In this document: positions 20,689 to 31,969 of the stretch, piece after piece
Numbering within the stretch: the first letter of the stretch is position 1
Layout: the number at the start of each line of letters is the position of its first letter
Assembly: GCA_014381725.1 (NCBI GenBank)
Contig: JACNLC010000055.1
Span: forward strand, 1 to 64,000
Reading direction: 5' to 3'
DNA length: 64,000 nt
From: Fidelibacterota bacterium
GTDB taxonomy: Bacteria > Fidelibacterota > Marinisomatia > SCGC-AAA003-L08 > JACNLC01
Program-made: the position numbers and the translations under genes
Notes under the pieces: model-generated
Database searches by the model: none
Seen by the model: only the letters and a program-made list of their open reading frames with translations
Told to the model about the DNA's origin: nothing

Positions 20689-22293
20689 ATGGAATACAAA
20701 TATAGAAAACCATTTCCAATAGCAAAAGATGATACTGAATATAGTTTGCTAACTTCAGATTTTGTTACAACAACAAATTTCGAGGGAAAAGAATTTGTTA
20801 AAGTTGCCGATGAAGGGTTATCATTTTTGGCTAATCGTGCAATGTTAGATGTAAATTTCTTACTTAGACCTTCTCATCAAGAACTTGTTGCAAAAATCTT
20901 AAATGATCCTGATGCATCGGACAATGATCAATTTGTTGCAAGAGTAATGTTACTAAATGCAAAAGTATCAAAAGACTTTAAACTTCCTTTTTGTCAAGAC
21001 ACAGGAACTGCTACAATTTACGCAAAGAAAGGTCAACAGATACTAACTGAAGGCAATGATGAAGAAGCTTTGTCAAATGGAGTTTATAAAACCTACAAAG
21101 AAAGTAATTTGCGGTATTCACAAGTTATGCCATTAACAATGTATGAAGAAAAAAATTCCGGCAATAATATGCCTGCACAAATTGATCTTGTTGCAACATC
21201 AGGGAGTGAGTACAAATTTTTATTTGTTGCAAAGGGTGGGGGATCAGGTAATAAATCTGCTTTATATCAAATGACAAAGTCAGTATTAAATCCTACAAAC
21301 TTGAAGAAATTTCTACTAGAGAAAATGAAAACTCTTGGAACAGCTGCTTGTCCACCATATCATTTAGCGTTTGTTGTTGGAGGAACATCAGCTGAATCTG
21401 TTATGAAAACTGTAAAACTTGCTACAACAGGATATTATGATAATTTACCAACAGAAGGAAATATCCAAGGTCAAGCATTCAGAGATTTGGAAACTGAAGA
21501 ATATTTACTCAACGCATCAAAAGAAATTGGTTTTGGTGCTCAATTCGGTGGGAAATATTTCTGCCATAGCGTAAGAGTTATTAGACTTCCTAGACATGGT
21601 GCTTCTTGTCCAATTGGGATGGGAGTTTCATGTTCGGCTCATAGAAATATTAAAGCTAAGATAAATAGTGGTGGAATTTGGTTAGAGAATTTAGAACTAG
21701 ATCCTGGTAGATTTCTCAAATTCGATAAGAGTGTTCAAAGTGCAGAACCTGTCAAGATTGATTTAAATAGACCTATGAATGAAGTGTTAGCTGAGTTATC
21801 ACAGCATCCAATAAAAACTCCATTAATGCTGACAGGTAAACTTGTAGTTGCACGAGATATGGCTCATGCTAAACTAAAAGAAATGTTAGATAGTGGTGAA
21901 GAATTACCACAGTATTTTAAAGATAATCCTGTTTATTATGCAGGACCTGCTAAAAAACCAGAAGGTTTACCATCTGGTTCATTTGGCCCAACCACTGCAT
22001 CGCGGATGGATCCTTATGTTGACGAATTCCAGAAAAATGGTGGCTCAATGATTATGATTGCTAAAGGAAATCGTTCTCAAATTGTTACTGATGCTTGTAA
22101 AGCAAATGGTGGATTCTATTTGGGATCAATTGGTGGACCTGCAGCACTATTAGCGAAAGAAAATATCAAAAATGTAAAAGTTATTGATTTTGAAGATTTC
22201 GGCATGGAAGCAGTTTGGGAGATAGAAGTTGAGAATTTCCCTGCATTTATACTAACTGACGATAAAGGAAATGATTTTTTCCAGACATTATAG
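20689..22293 (+). CDS. fumA: fumarate hydratase class I (Fe-S type)
   Basis: [81 protein letters not shown]. Confidence 0.92.
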
Positions 22294-22323
22294 AATTGTG
22301 TTACTAAACCTAAACAAATATGC

Positions 22324-22353
22324 AAAAAGCTCCAAATTACTGGAGCTTTTTTA
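22324..22353. terminator. bidirectional terminator between fumA and the tRNA-Ser pair
   Basis: AAAAAGCTCC-AAATTACT-GGAGCTTTTTT hairpin. Confidence 0.88.
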
Positions 22354-22356
22354 AAG

Positions 22357-22442
22357 CGGAGAGCACCAGATTCGAACTGGCACAGGACAGGTATGTCCCG
22401 GCGGATTAGCAATCCGCTGCAATACCATTATGCGAACTCTCC
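22357..22442 (-). tRNA. tRNA-Ser(GCT)
   Basis: Minus strand GGAGAGT...anticodon arm CGGATTGCTAATCCG, long variable arm, T-arm GCCAGTTCGAATCTGGT, acceptor CTCTCC. Confidence 0.88.
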
Positions 22443-22446
22443 ACTG

Positions 22447-22530
22447 CGGAGGATGAGGGACTCGAACCCCCAAGGGCGTAAACCCGGCGGTTTTCAAGAC
22501 CGCTGTCTTACCAATTAGAACTAATCCTCC
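22447..22530 (-). tRNA. tRNA-Ser(TGA)
   Basis: Minus strand GGAGGAT...anticodon arm GCGGTCTTGAAAACCGC, variable arm, T-arm GGGGGTTCGAGTCCCTC, acceptor ATCCTCC. Confidence 0.88.
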
Positions 22531-22600
22531 GTCAATTTGGGACGAAAATTTATAATCTTTTTGTTAGAATATCCAAAGTATGAATTTCAAATATGAAAAC

Positions 22601-25600
22601 TTATTTTTCAATATCCAATTCTGCTAACTTCTTATAATGTTCATATTGCATCTTAGCATTTTTATCGGCTTCCTGGAGTAATTTCTCAGCTCGATCTGGC
22701 ATTAATTTTGTCAGCATCTTAAACCGATTTTCATTGTACAAGAAATCCTTGATATGAATCTTTGGCGGTTTTGAATCCAATGAAAGTGGATTTTTACCTT
22801 CAGTTGCTAAAGCAGGATTGTAACGGTACAAGATTAAATGACCACTATCAACTGCTGATTTTTGTTGCTGTAATCCTTTTGCCATATCAATTCCGTGAGC
22901 AATGCAATGACTGTAGGCAATGATGAGTGAAGGTCCATCGTGTGCTTCGGCTTCCATAAAAGCTTTAACAGTTTGAGCATCGTTTGATCCCATAGCGACA
23001 TTAGCTACATAAACATCACCATAACTCATTGCAATCATTCCTAAATCTTTTTTGCTAGTTCCTTTACCAGATGCTGCAAATTTAGCAATTGCTCCAATCG
23101 GAGTTGCTTTTGAAGCTTGCCCACCTGTATTTGAGTATACTTCAGTATCCAAAACTAGTATATTTACATTTTTTCCTGATGCAAAAACATGATCAAGCCC
23201 ACCGAAACCTATATCAAATGCCCATCCATCTCCGCCCATAATCCAAACGCTTTTCTTAACAAGGTTGTCAGAAATAGATAATAAAAGTTTGGCTCTATTA
23301 GATTTAAGCCCACTCAAAATTTCATTTAATTTTTCAACTCGAATTCTTTGTTCAAATATTCCTGGTTCGTTTGTTTGATCTGCATTGAGTATTTGATCAA
23401 CTAAATCAGATCCAATTTCGGATTTCAATTCAACAAGCATTTCTTTTGCGTGAACTAAGTGCTTATCTATTGTTAATCTAAATCCTAAACCAAATTCTGC
23501 ATTATCTTCAAATAGTGAATTTGACCAAGCAGGTCCGCGTTTGTCGTTATTTATTGCCCATGGTGTAGTTGGTAGATTTCCACCATAAATTGATGAACAT
23601 CCAGTTGCATTAGCTATAATCATTCTATCACCGAATAATTGAGATGCTAACTTGACATACGGAGTTTCTCCACATCCAGAACAAGCTCCGGAAAATTCAA
23701 ACAAAGGTTGAAGCAATTGAGAACCTTTAACGGTTTTCTGTTTAACGGATTCTCTTTTTATCTCTGGTAGTGTGAGGAAGAAATCCCAATTATCTCTTTC
23801 GGATTCTCGTAATGGAATTTGAGATTCCATATTGATCGCTCTCTTAGTATTATCAGATTTATCTTTAACAGGGCAAACATCCACGCAAATTTCACAACCA
23901 GTGCAATCCTCAGCAGCAACCTGTAAAGTGTAAACATCATTTTCAGAATATTCTTTTCCTTTAGCTTTAACAGATTTAAATGTTATTGGTGCTTCCGATA
24001 ATAGTGTATTGTCATATATCTTTGGTCTAATTACTGCATGCGGACAAACAAAAGCACATTTATTACATTGGATACAAATATCTGGATTCCAAACTGGAAT
24101 TTCAGATGCTATATTTCGTTTTTCAAATTGAGTTGTAGCAGTAGGCCAAGTCCCATCATCTGGGAATGCACTTACAGGAAGATCGTCTCCTTCGCCAGCA
24201 ATGATTTTTGCAGTTACATTTCTTACAAAATCAGGAGCGTGGGCTGGAACAATTTCTGAAGAATATTCTTTACCAGTAGAAGTTTCTGGGATTATAACTT
24301 CATCTAAATTTGCTAAAGATTCATCAACAGCATTAAAATTCTTTTGTACAATATTTTCACCTTTGGTTCCATAGGTTTTTTTGATGTATTGTTTAATTTT
24401 CGCAATAGCTTCGTCTCTTGGTAGAATACCAGATATTGCAAAGAAACAAGTTTGCATAATCGTATTTATCCTAACACCCATACCTGTTTCACCAGCAACT
24501 TTTAGAGCATTTATCGAATATACTTTTAAATTTTTGTTTAGAATTTGTTTCTGTACATTTCTTGGGAAGTGATTCCAAACTTCGTTAGAAGGGTAGGGGC
24601 TGTTAACTAAAAAAGTAGCTCCATCAACTGCGTTTTTTAGCACATCCAAACTTTTCAAAAATTCAAAATTATGACAAGCTACAAAATTTGCTTTTCCAAT
24701 AAGATAAGTAGATTTAATTTCTTCAGAGCCAAATCTTAGGTGAGAAATTGTAATACTTCCGGATTTTTTGGAATCGTAAACAAAATATCCTTGAGCAAAG
24801 TTATCTGTTTCTTCACCAATAATCTTGATGGAATTTTTGTTGGCACCTACTGTTCCGTCAGCTCCTAATCCATAGAACATTCCTCTAAACATTTTCTCCC
24901 TACTTGGCGTGTAATTAGGTTCGTATTCAATACTAGTGTGGGAAACATCGTCATTAATTCCAACAGTAAAGTGATTTTTCGGAGTTTCCTTTTTCAACTC
25001 GTCAAACACTGCTTTTACCATCGCAGGGGTAAATTCCTTTGAAGATAGTCCATATCTCCCACCAATAACTTTGGGCATTGAATCAAGATTTAAATTACCT
25101 TGGTTGTCTTCTTCAATTAATGCAGTAAGAACATCTTGATAAAGAGGTTCGCCAATACTACCTGGCTCTTTTGTTCTATCAAGAACTGCAATGTTTTTTA
25201 CATTATTAGGTAGTGCATTTATTAAATGTTTAGTAGAAAATGGTCTAAATAATCGAACTTTTAAAACTCCTACATTTTCATCAGTTTCGTTCATAAAATC
25301 TACTGTTTCGTGGACTGTCTCTGCACCGGAAGCCATAATTACAATTACTCGATCGGCAGTTGGAGAACCAACATAATCGAATAAATGATACTGTCTTCCG
25401 ACAAGTTTTGCAAATTTGTTCATTACATTTTGAACAATTTCTGGTGTATCTGCATAATAAGAATTTGCAGCTTCCCTAACTTGGAAGAAAACATCTGGAT
25501 TTTGAGCTGTTCCTCTTAGAACTGGATTGTTTGGGTTTAAAGCTCTTCCACGATGTGCTTTTACAAGATTATCATCAATCATCGTCTTAATATCATCATC

Positions 25601-26161
25601 TGATAATTGTTCAATTTTCATCACTTCATGAGAAGTCCTGAATCCATCGAAAAAATGTAGAAATGGAACACGCGATTCTAATGTTGCAGCTTGAGAAATA
25701 AGAGCCATATCCATAACTTCTTGTACACTATTTGAAGCTAAAAGTGCAAATCCAGTTTGGCGAGTTGACATTACATCTGAATGATCGCCAAAAATTGATA
25801 ATGCGTGAGTTGCAATTGTTCTAGCTGAAACATGGAATACTGTAGAGGTAAGTTCACCTGCTATTTTGTACATATTTGGAATCATCAAAAGAAGCCCTTG
25901 TGATGCCGTAAATGTAGTTGTTAATGCACCAGTTTGAAGTGCACCATGTACAGCACCAGCAGCTCCACCTTCACTTTGCATTTCCATAACATCTGGAACA
26001 GTTCCCCAAATATTTTTTACATTATTAGATGACCAAGTATCTGCCCATTCGCCCATTGCAGACGATGGCGTAATTGGGTAAATAGCACAGACTTCATTTG
26101 TTTTGTGTGCGATGTATGCAGCAGCTTCATTTCCATCAATTGTTACAGTTTTTCTGTTCAT
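22601..26161 (-). CDS. nifJ: pyruvate:ferredoxin (flavodoxin) oxidoreductase, single-chain
   Basis: 1186 aa; AIYPITPSSAMGEWAD; CIQCNKCAFVCPH...CTGCEICVDVCPV; GACSGCGETPYVKLASQLFGDRMIIANATGCSSIYG; DTEVYSNTGGQASKATP. Confidence 0.96.
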   Translation of the reverse strand: MNRKTVTIDGNEAAAYIAHKTNEVCAIYPITPSSAMGEWADTWSSNNVKNIWGTVPDVMEMQSEGGAAGAVHGALQTGALTTTFTASQGLLLMIPNMYKIAGELTSTVFHVSARTIATHALSIFGDHSDVMSTRQTGFALLASNSVQEVMDMALISQAATLESRVPFLHFFDGFRTSHEVMKIEQLSDDDIKTMIDDNLVKAHRGRALNPNNPVLRGTAQNPDVFFQVREAANSYYADTPEIVQNVMNKFAKLVGRQYHLFDYVGSPTADRVIVIMASGAETVHETVDFMNETDENVGVLKVRLFRPFSTKHLINALPNNVKNIAVLDRTKEPGSIGEPLYQDVLTALIEEDNQGNLNLDSMPKVIGGRYGLSSKEFTPAMVKAVFDELKKETPKNHFTVGINDDVSHTSIEYEPNYTPSREKMFRGMFYGLGADGTVGANKNSIKIIGEETDNFAQGYFVYDSKKSGSITISHLRFGSEEIKSTYLIGKANFVACHNFEFLKSLDVLKNAVDGATFLVNSPYPSNEVWNHFPRNVQKQILNKNLKVYSINALKVAGETGMGVRINTIMQTCFFAISGILPRDEAIAKIKQYIKKTYGTKGENIVQKNFNAVDESLANLDEVIIPETSTGKEYSSEIVPAHAPDFVRNVTAKIIAGEGDDLPVSAFPDDGTWPTATTQFEKRNIASEIPVWNPDICIQCNKCAFVCPHAVIRPKIYDNTLLSEAPITFKSVKAKGKEYSENDVYTLQVAAEDCTGCEICVDVCPVKDKSDNTKRAINMESQIPLRESERDNWDFFLTLPEIKRESVKQKTVKGSQLLQPLFEFSGACSGCGETPYVKLASQLFGDRMIIANATGCSSIYGGNLPTTPWAINNDKRGPAWSNSLFEDNAEFGLGFRLTIDKHLVHAKEMLVELKSEIGSDLVDQILNADQTNEPGIFEQRIRVEKLNEILSGLKSNRAKLLLSISDNLVKKSVWIMGGDGWAFDIGFGGLDHVFASGKNVNILVLDTEVYSNTGGQASKATPIGAIAKFAASGKGTSKKDLGMIAMSYGDVYVANVAMGSNDAQTVKAFMEAEAHDGPSLIIAYSHCIAHGIDMAKGLQQQKSAVDSGHLILYRYNPALATEGKNPLSLDSKPPKIHIKDFLYNENRFKMLTKLMPDRAEKLLQEADKNAKMQYEHYKKLAELDIEK

Positions 26162-26356
26162 TTTCTATGTTCCTTTGTTTGACAAATAATTATATATTCC
26201 AATTTGGTAAAAACCGTTATAAAACTAGCCGAGTAATATACTATGTATTTCTCTGCATAAAATAATATTGTTTAGAGATATTAATCTTCTTCTAATTGTA
26301 AAGTAATTTCAGCAAATAGAATTCCTTGAAGCCGTTGATAATTGCAGAATATGTAT

Positions 26357-27313
26357 TTAGTTCAAAATACTATTTATCAGTTTTCTCCAACCTAAATCAG
26401 AAAGTCTGTTTTTCATGATCCGATAACTTTTACCATAGTCAGGAGATGGATCTTGCATCATATTTTCAAGTTGAATTTTAGAGAACTGAGTATCATAATA
26501 TTCATAAATAATCATTGACCCAAGATTGCATACGCCTTCAACTAAAGATGAGTGCATTTGTATAGCATTATCTTGTATCCAAATATGTAAATACTCATGG
26601 GATAACACTGCTTCAAATTCAATTTTCGGGAGTCCAAACAAAATATAAATTGTGTAGTTTATATTAACGACTATATCGTTCAAATATTCAATTTCAATGT
26701 GAGTAAATCCTTTTAATTCAGTATGATGTAATTCTCCAGATTTTTTAGATAATTGATGTTGATCAACTAAAAGTATTTTAATATCTTTAGGTAAATCCAA
26801 AAACCCTTTATCTGATAATTGCTGAATTACAAAATTCCTTGAACTACTGATTGAGCTTTCAGTTTCAGTCATTGTCGCTGCACATGGAGTGCAAATGTAT
26901 CTTCCATCGTTAAACTGAAAACCTCCTTTTGTGATATTAGCTGAAATTAACCTTCCACAAGAATTACAGAAATTCCCTTCAGATTCGTGTTTTGAATGAT
27001 ATTTGTTTCCCCAAGCATCCTCAAAATATTTGTGTTCAATAGGAAGTAAACATACATCACATTTTGACAAAATATTATTCTTGTAGCAAGATTCGTGGTA
27101 ATTCTTATCTTCATAGAAAGTATATTTTGAAGTTATTGGATTGTTACAAAAGCCACAAATAAAACACAGAGGATGAGCTTTGTTATTTTCAATTTGCACA
27201 TATTCATCAGTAATCTTGGTTTTACAAATATAGCAATTCAGTTCTTTCCCATAACAATAAGTTGAACTTATAAAATTTACTATAAGTAAGAATAGTATAG
27301 TTTTTTGTTTCAT
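26357..27313 (-). CDS. secreted LIM-domain protein with DA1-like HExxH metallopeptidase domain
   Basis: Signal peptide MKQKTILFLLIVNFISSTYC; LIM-like CYICKTKI...HPLCFICGFC...HESC, second finger CDVCLLPI...CNSCGRLI...CTPC; FEAVLSHEYLHIWIQ (HExxH) followed by SSLVEGVCNLGSMIIYEY. Confidence 0.78.
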   Translation of the reverse strand: MKQKTILFLLIVNFISSTYCYGKELNCYICKTKITDEYVQIENNKAHPLCFICGFCNNPITSKYTFYEDKNYHESCYKNNILSKCDVCLLPIEHKYFEDAWGNKYHSKHESEGNFCNSCGRLISANITKGGFQFNDGRYICTPCAATMTETESSISSSRNFVIQQLSDKGFLDLPKDIKILLVDQHQLSKKSGELHHTELKGFTHIEIEYLNDIVVNINYTIYILFGLPKIEFEAVLSHEYLHIWIQDNAIQMHSSLVEGVCNLGSMIIYEYYDTQFSKIQLENMMQDPSPDYGKSYRIMKNRLSDLGWRKLINSILN

Positions 27314-27402
27314 AAATTGTAAATTTCATTTATAAAAGTTTCCTAAATTTACAATAAGTGAAGCAATATGATTTCAATCAAATCAATGAGGTTTAAAATA
27401 TT

Positions 27403-28599
27403 ATGAAAATAGGAATTCTAACTGCTGGAGGAATTGCTCCTTGTCTATCAGCTTCAGTTGGTAGATTAATTAAACAATATACAGAATTGTTTCCCAAAGT
27501 AGAAATTATTGGTTATTTGCACGGATATAAAGGGCTATTGCAAGGAAATTCAATAGAAATAACTAATTCTGTAAGAGACAATGCAGAATTACTTTATGAG
27601 TTTGGAGGAAGTCCGTTTGGAAATAGTCGTGTAAAATTAACAAATATCGAGAATTGTGTAAAAATGGGATATATTTCCAAAGGGCAAAATCCTCTTCAAG
27701 TTGCATCTGAACAATTGAAGAATGATGGGATTACGATATTACACACTATTGGTGGAGATGATACAAATACTTCAGCTGGAGATTTATCAACACATCTATC
27801 TCAACATGATTATTCGCTCACAGTAGTAGGTATACCTAAAACTGTTGATAATGATGTATATCCTATTCAGCAAACTCTTGGTGCTTGGACTGCATCTGAA
27901 CAAGGCGCCATTTTCTTTGAAAATGTAGTTAATGAAAATACTACTAGTTCAAGACAATTGATAATCCACGAAGTAATGGGTCGCAATTGTGGCTGGTTAA
28001 CTGCAGAAACTGCTCGTGAATATAGAAACAGGTTATCTAAAAAATCATTTCTTCCTGATATTTTAGTAGAAAAATCTCGATGGGATATTGATGCAGTATA
28101 TATTCCTGAAATGGAAATTAATCTAAAAGAAGAAGCTAAAAGATTAAAACAACTAATGAACGAGAAAGACTGCGTTAATATATTTTTAAGCGAAGGAGCT
28201 GGTCTTGAGAGTATAGTAACCGAAATGGAAGCTAATGGCGATGAAGTAAAAAGAGATGCATTTGGGCATGTGCGTTTGGACGAGATAAATCCTGGACAAT
28301 GGTTTGCAAAACAATTTGCAGGAATGCTCAATGCTGACAAAGTCCTCGTGCAGAAAAGTGGCTATTTTGCTAGGTCATCTGCTCCAAACAGTAAAGACCT
28401 AAATCTTATAAAGGAAACAGCAGATATGGCTGTGGTATGCGCCACAAACGGAGAAAATGGAGTCATTGGTCTTGACGAAAATAACAGTGGGAAATTGAGT
28501 TGTATTGATTTTTCACGAATTAAAGGTGGAAAACCATTTGATTTCAATCAACAATGGTTTACGAATTTGTTAAAAGAAATTGGACAAATAGATAAGTGA
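27403..28599 (+). CDS. pfp: 6-phosphofructokinase, pyrophosphate-dependent type predicted
   Basis: GILTAGGIAPCLSASVGRL; GGDDTNTSAG; PKTVDNDVYPIQQTLGAWTA; GRNCGWLTAETA. Confidence 0.85.
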   Translation: MKIGILTAGGIAPCLSASVGRLIKQYTELFPKVEIIGYLHGYKGLLQGNSIEITNSVRDNAELLYEFGGSPFGNSRVKLTNIENCVKMGYISKGQNPLQVASEQLKNDGITILHTIGGDDTNTSAGDLSTHLSQHDYSLTVVGIPKTVDNDVYPIQQTLGAWTASEQGAIFFENVVNENTTSSRQLIIHEVMGRNCGWLTAETAREYRNRLSKKSFLPDILVEKSRWDIDAVYIPEMEINLKEEAKRLKQLMNEKDCVNIFLSEGAGLESIVTEMEANGDEVKRDAFGHVRLDEINPGQWFAKQFAGMLNADKVLVQKSGYFARSSAPNSKDLNLIKETADMAVVCATNGENGVIGLDENNSGKLSCIDFSRIKGGKPFDFNQQWFTNLLKEIGQIDK

Positions 28600-28635
28600 A
28601 AAGTAATTGCAAATGATCAACGGAAAGGATAAATA

Positions 28636-29631
28636 ATGTCAGTACATTACAAAGAATTAGGGCTAGTTAATACAAAAGAAATGTTTGAAAGAGCTATGGC
28701 GAACGGATTCGCTGTGCCTGGGTATAACTTCAATAATATGGAGCAGTTACAGGCAATAATTCAAGCTTGTGTTGAAACAGGTTCTCCAGTAATCTTGCAA
28801 GTTTCAGCCGGTGCAAGAAAATATGCAAATCAGACTCTTCTTCGCTATATGGCTCAGGGTGCTGTGGAATATGCAAAAGAACTAGGTAAAGCAATTCCAA
28901 TTGCACTGCATTTGGATCACGGGAATTCTTTTGAGTTGTGCAAAAGTTGTATTGATATGGGATTCTCATCAGTAATGATTGATGCATCTCAGCATCCATT
29001 TGACAAGAACATCGAAATTACAAAAGAAGTTGTTGAGTATGCTCATAAACTTGATGTAAGCGTGGAAGCAGAGCTTGGTATTCTTGCCGGTATTGAAGAC
29101 GATGTAGTTGCAGAAAAGTCCACTTACACCAAGCCAGAAGAAGTAATTGAATTTGCAGAACGAACCGGTTGCGATTCTCTTGCCATCTCAATTGGTACTT
29201 CTCACGGTGCGTTCAAATTTACTCCTGAACAATGCACACTTAATGAAAATGGAGAACTAATTCCACCTCCACTAAAATTTGATGTTCTAGATGCTGTTGA
29301 AGAAAAATTACCGGGTTTCCCAATAGTGTTGCATGGATCATCGTCTGTCCCGCAGGATTTGATTACGACAATTAACAATCACGGTGGAGCTTTACAGGAT
29401 GCTATTGGAATTCCAGAAGATCAGCTTAGGCAAGCATCAAAATCTGCAGTTTGTAAAATTAATATAGATTCAGATGGAAGATTAGCAATGACATCTGCAA
29501 TCCGTGAGACCCTCGATGAACAACAAGAAGTCTTTGACCCACGAAAATTTTTCGGACCTGCTCGTGATGCTCTAAAAATATTGTATATGCGAAAAAATAG
29601 AGAAGTGCTAGGAAGTGCTGATAGATATTAG
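28636..29631 (+). CDS. fba: class II fructose-bisphosphate aldolase
   Basis: FAVPGYNFNNMEQLQAII, IALHLDHGNSFELCKSCIDMGFSSVMIDAS, AEAELGILAG-like VEAELGILAGIED, SIGTSHGAFKF, VLHGSSSVP. Confidence 0.92.
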   Translation: MSVHYKELGLVNTKEMFERAMANGFAVPGYNFNNMEQLQAIIQACVETGSPVILQVSAGARKYANQTLLRYMAQGAVEYAKELGKAIPIALHLDHGNSFELCKSCIDMGFSSVMIDASQHPFDKNIEITKEVVEYAHKLDVSVEAELGILAGIEDDVVAEKSTYTKPEEVIEFAERTGCDSLAISIGTSHGAFKFTPEQCTLNENGELIPPPLKFDVLDAVEEKLPGFPIVLHGSSSVPQDLITTINNHGGALQDAIGIPEDQLRQASKSAVCKINIDSDGRLAMTSAIRETLDEQQEVFDPRKFFGPARDALKILYMRKNREVLGSADRY

Positions 29632-29789
29632 TGATTGAGAAATGAGAACAAGGCACTTGCTTGGTCTTTGCAATCTGTGGTTAACAGGAAGGCAATCTTT
29701 GAACTTGGATCTTTGATGTTTGTTGTTAGAGATTGTTTGTTGGATTTTGGTTTAGTAAATTCGGTGTGTTCGTTGTGAAAGATTTTAAA

Positions 29790-31019
29790 CTATAATTCAT
29801 CCTTTAAATATAGTTGGACTTGTTCGATTCGTCTAGCTGATGCTTTCTTAATGATGACTTGTCCAATATTCAAAAATAAATGTTCACCTTTATTCGGAAT
29901 TCGACCTAGTTCGTTAATCAAATATCCTGCTAGTGTTTCATAATCTCCATCTGGGATTATGTTACCGTGTAAATCATTGAATGCGTCACATTCAATTTTT
30001 GCGTTAGCGATAATTGATCCATCATCTAGAACTTCAGTTTTGTAATCGTCAGATTCATCCGAATCAAACTCATCTTCAAATTCACCGAAGAGTTCTTCAA
30101 ATAAATCTTCAGCAGTAACAAGTCCTGCAGTACCGCCGTGTTCATCCAAAACTATTGCTAAAGCGTGGTGAGCAGTTTGAAATTTCATCAAAGTATCTTT
30201 AGCAGATTTTGTATAGGGGATGTAGGGTACTGGGTGAATAATATCCTTTATATTTTTGGGGGATTTAAATAAATCATATAGATAGATTATTCCTGTAATA
30301 TTGTCAATATCACCATTGTAAACTGGAATTTTGGAATGGCCAGAATCTATTATTTTGTGAAGGATATCTTTCAAAGAATCATTATTAGAAACTGCAGATA
30401 TTTCAGTCCTCGGAGTCATAGCATCTGAAACTGTACTTTCGCTAAATTCGAATACATTTGAAATCAATTCTCGTTGGTCTTCTTCCATAGCTTCAGGTAG
30501 AACATCAGCTTGTTCATACAAATTTTGTAAATCATCTCGTTCTTGTTCTTGCGAAACTGTAGTTTTAGTTGGTGTTTCCGCTATTTTCATCCAGCCAGCT
30601 TTTTTTAGTAAAAAGTTTATTGGATAAAATATTATACCAAAAAAATACAAACCTGGTGATAGAATTAAGAGAGATATATTGGAAAATTCTCTTACAATAC
30701 TCTTTGGAAGTATTTCACCAACCAACAGAATAATAAGAGAAATAATGGATATAATCACTATTGGATGAAGATTCCATTCAAGTAAGAAAACTGTACCAAA
30801 AGATGTAGCAATAATATTAGATATATTTGTGCCAATAAGAATAGTAATAAGATACTCTTCTTTGTTTAGCAATGTTGAAAACGCTAATCGAGCACTTCGT
30901 TTTTTTTGCTTTATCCATACTTTCATCTGTAACTTATTAGCGGATATTAAAGCAATTTCCGCTGCAGTAAAGAGAATAGATAGGATAAGCCCTAAAAGAG
31001 CTAAATTTAAAGGTAGCAT
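29790..31019 (-). CDS. CNNM/CorC (HlyC) family membrane protein with CBS pair
   Basis: N-terminal TM domain AAEIALISANKLQ; CBS region DAMTPRTEISAVSNNDSLKDILHKIIDSGHSKIPVYNGDIDNITGIIYLYDLF; VLDEHGGTAGLVTAEDLFEELFGEFEDEFD. ATG at 31019 preferred. Confidence 0.88.
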   Translation of the reverse strand: MLPLNLALLGLILSILFTAAEIALISANKLQMKVWIKQKKRSARLAFSTLLNKEEYLITILIGTNISNIIATSFGTVFLLEWNLHPIVIISIISLIILLVGEILPKSIVREFSNISLLILSPGLYFFGIIFYPINFLLKKAGWMKIAETPTKTTVSQEQERDDLQNLYEQADVLPEAMEEDQRELISNVFEFSESTVSDAMTPRTEISAVSNNDSLKDILHKIIDSGHSKIPVYNGDIDNITGIIYLYDLFKSPKNIKDIIHPVPYIPYTKSAKDTLMKFQTAHHALAIVLDEHGGTAGLVTAEDLFEELFGEFEDEFDSDESDDYKTEVLDDGSIIANAKIECDAFNDLHGNIIPDGDYETLAGYLINELGRIPNKGEHLFLNIGQVIIKKASARRIEQVQLYLKDEL

Positions 31020-31066
31020 AATATGAAAATTGCACTCATTTGTATAGGTAAAATTAGAAAGATTTA

Positions 31067-31969
31067 ATGAACATTTCAAAGATTAAGATTACAAATAAAA
31101 TTACAGAACAACAAAATCCAAATAGCATCAATCTTGATAATCTCTCGATTAATGAAGTTATAAAATTGATAAATGAAGAAGATAAAAGTGTAGCTTTTTC
31201 TGTGGAAAAAGTTCTACCTCAAGTAACTGAACTTATAGAAAAAGTGATTATTTGTTTACAAAATAATGGACGACTATTTTATATTGGCTCAGGAACGAGT
31301 GGGAGATTGGGAGTTTTAGACGCATCTGAATGCCCGCCGACATTTTCTACAAACCCTGAGATGGTTCAGGGAATTATTGCCGGTGGATATGGTGCTTTAG
31401 TTAAATCTATTGAAGGTGCAGAGGATAATCCTAAAGACGGAGCTAGAACGATTGTAAACAACAAAATTACTGAAAACGATGTAGTTATTGGAATTACAGC
31501 TAGTAGTAACACTCCATTTGTTATCGGCGCCCTAGAACAAGCAAAACAGTTTAATGCTGTTACAGGACTAATTATTTGCAATAAACCACCTAAACTTGAT
31601 TTTGTGGATGTAGTAATTCCAGTAATTGCTGGTCCAGAAGTAGTAACTGGCTCAACTCGCATGAAAGCTGGAACTGCAACTAAAATGATTCTAAATATGA
31701 TAACCACAACTACAATGGTAAAATTGAATAAAACTTATGGCAATTTAATGGTAGATTTGAAAGCATCTAATAATAAGTTATGGGAGAGAGGGACAAGAAT
31801 TATTTCTTATCTAACCGGTTTACCTCCAGATGAAGCTCTAAAATTTCTCAAAGAAGCCAATGGAGAAGTCAAAACAGCGATTGTTATGAGTAAACTACAA
31901 ACTAACTACAATAAAGCAAAGCAATTACTTGATAACGCTCAGGGAAGTTTGAGAAAAGTTATTGACTAA
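31067..31969 (+). CDS. murQ: N-acetylmuramic acid 6-phosphate etherase
   Basis: GRLFYIGSGTSGRLGVLDASECPPTF, IAGGYGALVKSIEGAEDN, VTGSTRMKAGTATKMILNMITT. Confidence 0.93.
   Translation: MNISKIKITNKITEQQNPNSINLDNLSINEVIKLINEEDKSVAFSVEKVLPQVTELIEKVIICLQNNGRLFYIGSGTSGRLGVLDASECPPTFSTNPEMVQGIIAGGYGALVKSIEGAEDNPKDGARTIVNNKITENDVVIGITASSNTPFVIGALEQAKQFNAVTGLIICNKPPKLDFVDVVIPVIAGPEVVTGSTRMKAGTATKMILNMITTTTMVKLNKTYGNLMVDLKASNNKLWERGTRIISYLTGLPPDEALKFLKEANGEVKTAIVMSKLQTNYNKAKQLLDNAQGSLRKVID

Follow-up and report, generated by a model that had tools for sequence, protein, structure and literature searches.

The gene at positions 26357..27313 on the minus strand (start ATG at 27313, stop at 26357, from the list of open reading frames) of the analyzed 64,000-nucleotide stretch of DNA, hereafter the window, belongs to an uncultured marine bacterium of Candidatus Neomarinimicrobiota and encodes a protein of 318 amino acids that probably represents an exported bacterial LIM-peptidase of the DA1-like type (PF12315), a predicted zinc protease working outside the cytoplasm. 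This protein, the single DA1-like copy in its genome, is a further member of a bacterial family that is already described and thinly studied, not a new kind of system. The LIM and DA1-like similarity claimed in an earlier note, which was made from the DNA alone, is borne out by both profiles, which score above the curated Pfam cut-offs (LIM, PF00412, 7e-9, 36.3 bits against a cut-off of 22.9; PF12315, 4.9e-8, 33.1 bits against 25); matches to NCBIfam families are far under cut-off and were discarded as spurious.

Zinc fingers and peptidase domain

Residues 27-79 (27077..27235, minus strand) form a canonical LIM domain with the pattern C27-x2-C30-x16-H47-x2-C50-x2-C53-x2-C56-x16-H73-x2-C76, an eight-ligand double zinc finger that is recognized both by the Pfam LIM profile and, in Foldseek, by LIM domains in the PDB. 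The second finger, residues 85-144 (26882..27061, minus strand), is a divergent LIM-like module, C85-x2-C88-x17-H106-x2-H109-x6-C116-x2-C119-x21-C141-x2-C144, in which the linker between the two halves is x6 instead of x2, and which falls within the tandem-LIM fold match. In the alignment of 25 homologs, seven of its eight ligands are invariant (C85, C88, H109, C116, C119, C141 and C144) and H106 is conserved in more than 90% of the members; the proposed pair of LIM-like zinc fingers resolves into one canonical and one divergent finger. N-terminal to the conserved LIM-like finger, individual members carry anywhere from no zinc-finger module to several, which indicates that the core unit consists of the LIM-like finger and the peptidase.

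The zincin-type peptidase domain (residues 152-318; 26357..26860, minus strand) contains the HEYLH active-site motif (residues 239-243; 26585..26599, minus strand), followed exactly 15 residues after H243 by E259, the predicted third zinc ligand, in an HExxH-x15-E arrangement; E259 opens the EGVCN block (residues 259-263; 26525..26539, minus strand). Both elements had been picked out in the earlier note as a catalytic site with a conserved-looking block, and H239, E240, H243, E259 and G260 indeed are invariant in all 25 homologs. The match to PF12315 is restricted to the catalytic core (model positions 81-125 of 213, about 45 positions), which we counted against the DA1-like explanation; in some homologs, the match covers longer or further stretches of the model. 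The PF12315 profile hits every one of the 25 homologs (best, 3.9e-17), and the Pfam LIM profile hits 16 of them. The alignment spans four phyla (Neomarinimicrobiota, Bacteroidota, Fusobacteriota and Acidobacteriota), and includes 14 invariant columns, namely M1, the seven ligands of the second finger, G202, H239, E240, H243, E259 and G260, a degree of conservation which implies that the LIM/DA1-like pattern is more than chance.

The AlphaFold2 model of the full protein, built with the 25-member alignment, has a pLDDT of 92.8 and a pTM of 0.82. Comparison of the whole model with the PDB using Foldseek retrieved tandem LIM structures over approximately 125 columns (PINCH1 LIM4-5, E 8e-6), and a profile search against the PDB led to the same LIM families; a viral structure library yielded no meaningful whole-length match. 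The model of the peptidase domain alone (residues 148-318; pLDDT 94.3, pTM 0.91) produced no significant Foldseek match in the PDB, the best being the zincin MATCAP (E 0.11), with the zincins IrrE/PprI and YbeY also among the non-significant matches, and we counted this result against the exported-peptidase explanation. Thus, there is no close solved structure of this DA1-type peptidase domain among those searched. A small stand-alone bacterial homolog with a high-confidence model appears tractable both for structure determination and for analysis of the effect of the LIM-like finger on the active site.

Plant DA1 and other related peptidases

Plant DA1 (MEROPS M102) is a growth regulator that controls organ and seed size. 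The window protein shares with the plant DA1/DAR proteins (M102, PF12315) the succession of LIM domain, LIM-like finger and HExxH-x15-E peptidase, in the same order, as well as the E-G-x-C block and a LIM-like finger with four CxxC/H pairs, in agreement with the DA1-like architecture suggested previously. The x15 spacing is that of the DA1 active-site motif, HEMMHx15EE, and the peptidase activity of DA1 is lost when its LIM-like finger carries the C274Y change (Dong et al., 2017, PMC5322733). Unlike the plant proteins, the window protein has a predicted export signal and lacks ubiquitin-interacting motifs, given that the stretch before the first finger is only about 26 residues long and consists of the hydrophobic export-type signal, whereas DA1 is activated within plant cells by ubiquitylation.

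High similarity has been reported between a region of the DA1 family and proteins predicted in the bacterium Roseiflexus (Dong et al., 2017, PMC5322733), and the same paper cites the report of bacterial DA1 relatives by Burroughs, Iyer and Aravind (2011), which confirms that the bacterial LIM-peptidase family mentioned in the earlier note had been reported. As described in the citing paper, these bacterial proteins (from Roseiflexus and others) similarly join LIM-like fingers to a DA1-similar peptidase, whereas the lineage analyzed here is Neomarinimicrobiota and carries a predicted export signal. Among the homologs identified in this work, two Chitinophagaceae members and one Fusobacteria member (L057, L060 and L061) retain the fingers and the active site, with 29-33% identity to the window protein, but lack a signal and start at the first finger. 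The BSP peptidases (PF04450) and the IrrE/SprT-type zincins share the HExxH core and give weak profile or fold matches but have no LIM fingers, and PF04450 itself remains under its cut-off (15.8 bits against 23.8).

N-terminal region and predicted mode of action

The first 20 residues (MKQKTILFLLIVNFISSTYC; 27254..27313, minus strand) make up a predicted export signal, which begins with positive charge and continues as a hydrophobic run; no lipobox was seen within them. Secretion was called with a Kyte-Doolittle heuristic, the highest mean hydropathy of any 10-residue segment close to the N-terminus, rather than with SignalP; by this measure, the window protein peaks at 3.12, none of 14 cytosolic reference proteins surpasses 2.01, and all 22 aligned proteins from Neomarinimicrobiota and Acidobacteria (of the 25 homologs) exceed 2.4. 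The signal peptide proposed previously is therefore matched by an export-type N-terminus in every aligned member of these two groups, as judged by hydropathy, and the 318-residue protein is probably exported. The two Chitinophagaceae proteins and the one from Fusobacteria have values below 1 and are presumably cytoplasmic, so the LIM-peptidase family apparently includes both export-type and cytoplasmic versions. LIM fingers usually reside inside cells, and, being rich in Cys, they could become oxidised once out of the cytoplasm, two considerations that we counted against the exported-peptidase explanation; exported LIM fingers are also unusual, given that LIM domains are known chiefly from the interior of eukaryotic cells.

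Under the preferred scenario, the N-terminal signal would direct the protein through the inner membrane, and it would act outside the cytoplasm, in the periplasm or at the surface, as an endopeptidase of the gluzincin type (HExxH+E), with the catalytic zinc held by H239, H243 and E259 and with E240 as the general base. The LIM and LIM-like fingers, arranged in tandem ahead of the catalytic domain, most likely bind or present a protein substrate or else hold the peptidase latent, by analogy with DA1, whose LIM-like finger is needed for activity. The putative peptidase as a whole most likely serves in the limited processing of some envelope protein.

Two variants of this scenario have to be considered. 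The N-terminal segment could be an uncleaved anchor that keeps the enzyme attached to the outer side of the inner membrane, where it would trim membrane or envelope proteins; this is possible although doubtful. In the model, the N-terminus is a single hydrophobic helix (residues 2-18), the region SSTYC-YG offers no clean signal-peptidase site, and the abstract of Burroughs, Iyer and Aravind from 2011 reportedly describes LIM domains of prokaryotes as partnering with membrane-associated peptidases, which would favor an anchor; however, several homologs contain plausible small-x-Ala cleavage sites, such as SAA-QPT (L032) and VNA-QSL (L034). Alternatively, the fold might have been kept for binding only, in a pseudo-enzyme. 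This possibility is consistent with the fact that no bacterial member with shown activity was found in the literature, but it appears very unlikely given that none of the residues H239, E240, H243 and E259 varies among the 25 members from different phyla, and that zinc binding alone would not require the base, E240.

Chromosomal slot, distribution and ancestry

In the window, the DA1-like gene is located between the genes for pyruvate:ferredoxin oxidoreductase (PFOR, TIGR02176) and PPi-phosphofructokinase (PFK, PRK06555), which are followed by class II aldolase, a CNNM/GldE-like gene and murQ. A PFK of the same kind adjoins the DA1-like gene in 11 Neomarinimicrobiota loci (L046-L053, L055, L056 and L059); class I aldolase replaces class II there, and in 8 of the loci, a pyruvate dehydrogenase (PDH) operon occupies the PFOR side. 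Sister genomes contain an empty slot, with the paired genes directly adjacent and separated by approximately 100-350 bases, as either PFK/PFOR (G002 and G003) or PFK/PDH (G009, G017 and G019). These clean empty slots show that the DA1-like gene is dispensable, and the most parsimonious scenario is that an ancestral gene occupied the PFK slot and was lost several times. Homologs were detected in 14 of 60 relatives (own genome included), and PF12315 is present in 41 of the 245 genomes of the phylum; this wide yet patchy spread in a marine phylum, together with the predicted export signal, is the less usual side of the Neomarinimicrobiota family. Homologs with names come from Candidatus Neomarinimicrobiota, Chitinophagaceae, Fusobacteria, Acidobacteria and a bin titled Deltaproteobacteria, which is placed in Myxococcota in the tree.

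The gene tree was built from bacterial sequences; in this tree, families f13, f25, f30 and f31 are each confined to one side of a branch, Acidobacteria sequences group with f25 and f31, and the branching within the taxonomic order of the window is not resolved, with sequences of Chitinophagaceae, Fusobacteria and Myxococcota falling there as well. The admixture of sequences from other phyla makes some transfer between phyla likely. Viral contigs, phage records and plasmid records contained no recognisable relative of the protein and thus lend no support to an origin from phages or plasmids.

The neighborhood and the domain content each invite an explanation different from that of an exported bacterial LIM-peptidase. 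The glycolytic neighbors could suggest a role in central carbon metabolism; these neighbors are the PFK next to the gene in the window and the 11 related loci, the different PPi-PFK subfamily in five loci of another Neomarinimicrobiota family, and pyruvate kinase directly upstream in four of the five Acidobacteriota loci checked. Nevertheless, such a role is unlikely because the protein looks exported, the neighbors differ in f13, f25, f31 and other phyla, the PFK/PDH or PFK/PFOR pair persists without the DA1-like gene in sister genomes, and the glycolytic pattern was recognized post hoc. Because the gene pairs remain in place where the peptidase gene is missing, we rejected any strong functional interpretation of the PFK neighborhood. 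Nor did any conserved neighbor emerge as a candidate substrate, the adjacent genes being metabolic in the order of the window and different elsewhere. The mainly eukaryotic occurrence of LIM domains might further suggest that a bacterium recently gained a DA1 gene horizontally from a plant or alga. Given the family-level clades that follow bacterial taxonomy (in the tree of bacterial sequences), the conserved chromosomal slot, the presence of PF12315 in 41 of the 245 genomes of the phylum, the predicted export signals and the lack of room for ubiquitin-interacting motifs, this gain is extremely unlikely. A more far-reaching version of the exported-peptidase explanation, in which Neomarinimicrobiota and Acidobacteriota form an extracytoplasmic branch, the zinc-loaded LIM tandems serve a processing protease outside the cytoplasm by docking its substrate or keeping it latent, and the plant DA1 lineage arose from bacterial enzymes of this family, is a speculation with a rather small chance of being correct.

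Several features of the loci were recorded in addition. In the region at 20689-31969 of the window, non-homologous enzymes are exchanged around the conserved slot (PDH E1-E2-E3 and class I aldolase in the relatives versus PFOR and class II aldolase in the window), with PFK, the CNNM/GldE-like gene and murQ kept across the exchange. The PPi-PFK found near the DA1-like gene in the other Neomarinimicrobiota family (L067, L068, L071, L073 and L102) belongs to subfamily PRK14072 and is approximately 24% identical to that of the window; in these loci, the gene also lies beside genes for PAP2, CDP-alcohol phosphotransferase and myo-inositol-phosphate synthase. An ABC-2 transporter pair adjoins the DA1-like gene in a locus assigned to Myxococcota (L058) and in three loci of a distant Neomarinimicrobiota family (L069, L070 and L075). 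Among the four Acidobacteriota loci with the gene directly downstream of pyruvate kinase (L062, L063, L091 and L092), the pyruvate kinase stop overlaps the DA1-like start codon in the first two, which suggests translational coupling to the glycolytic gene.
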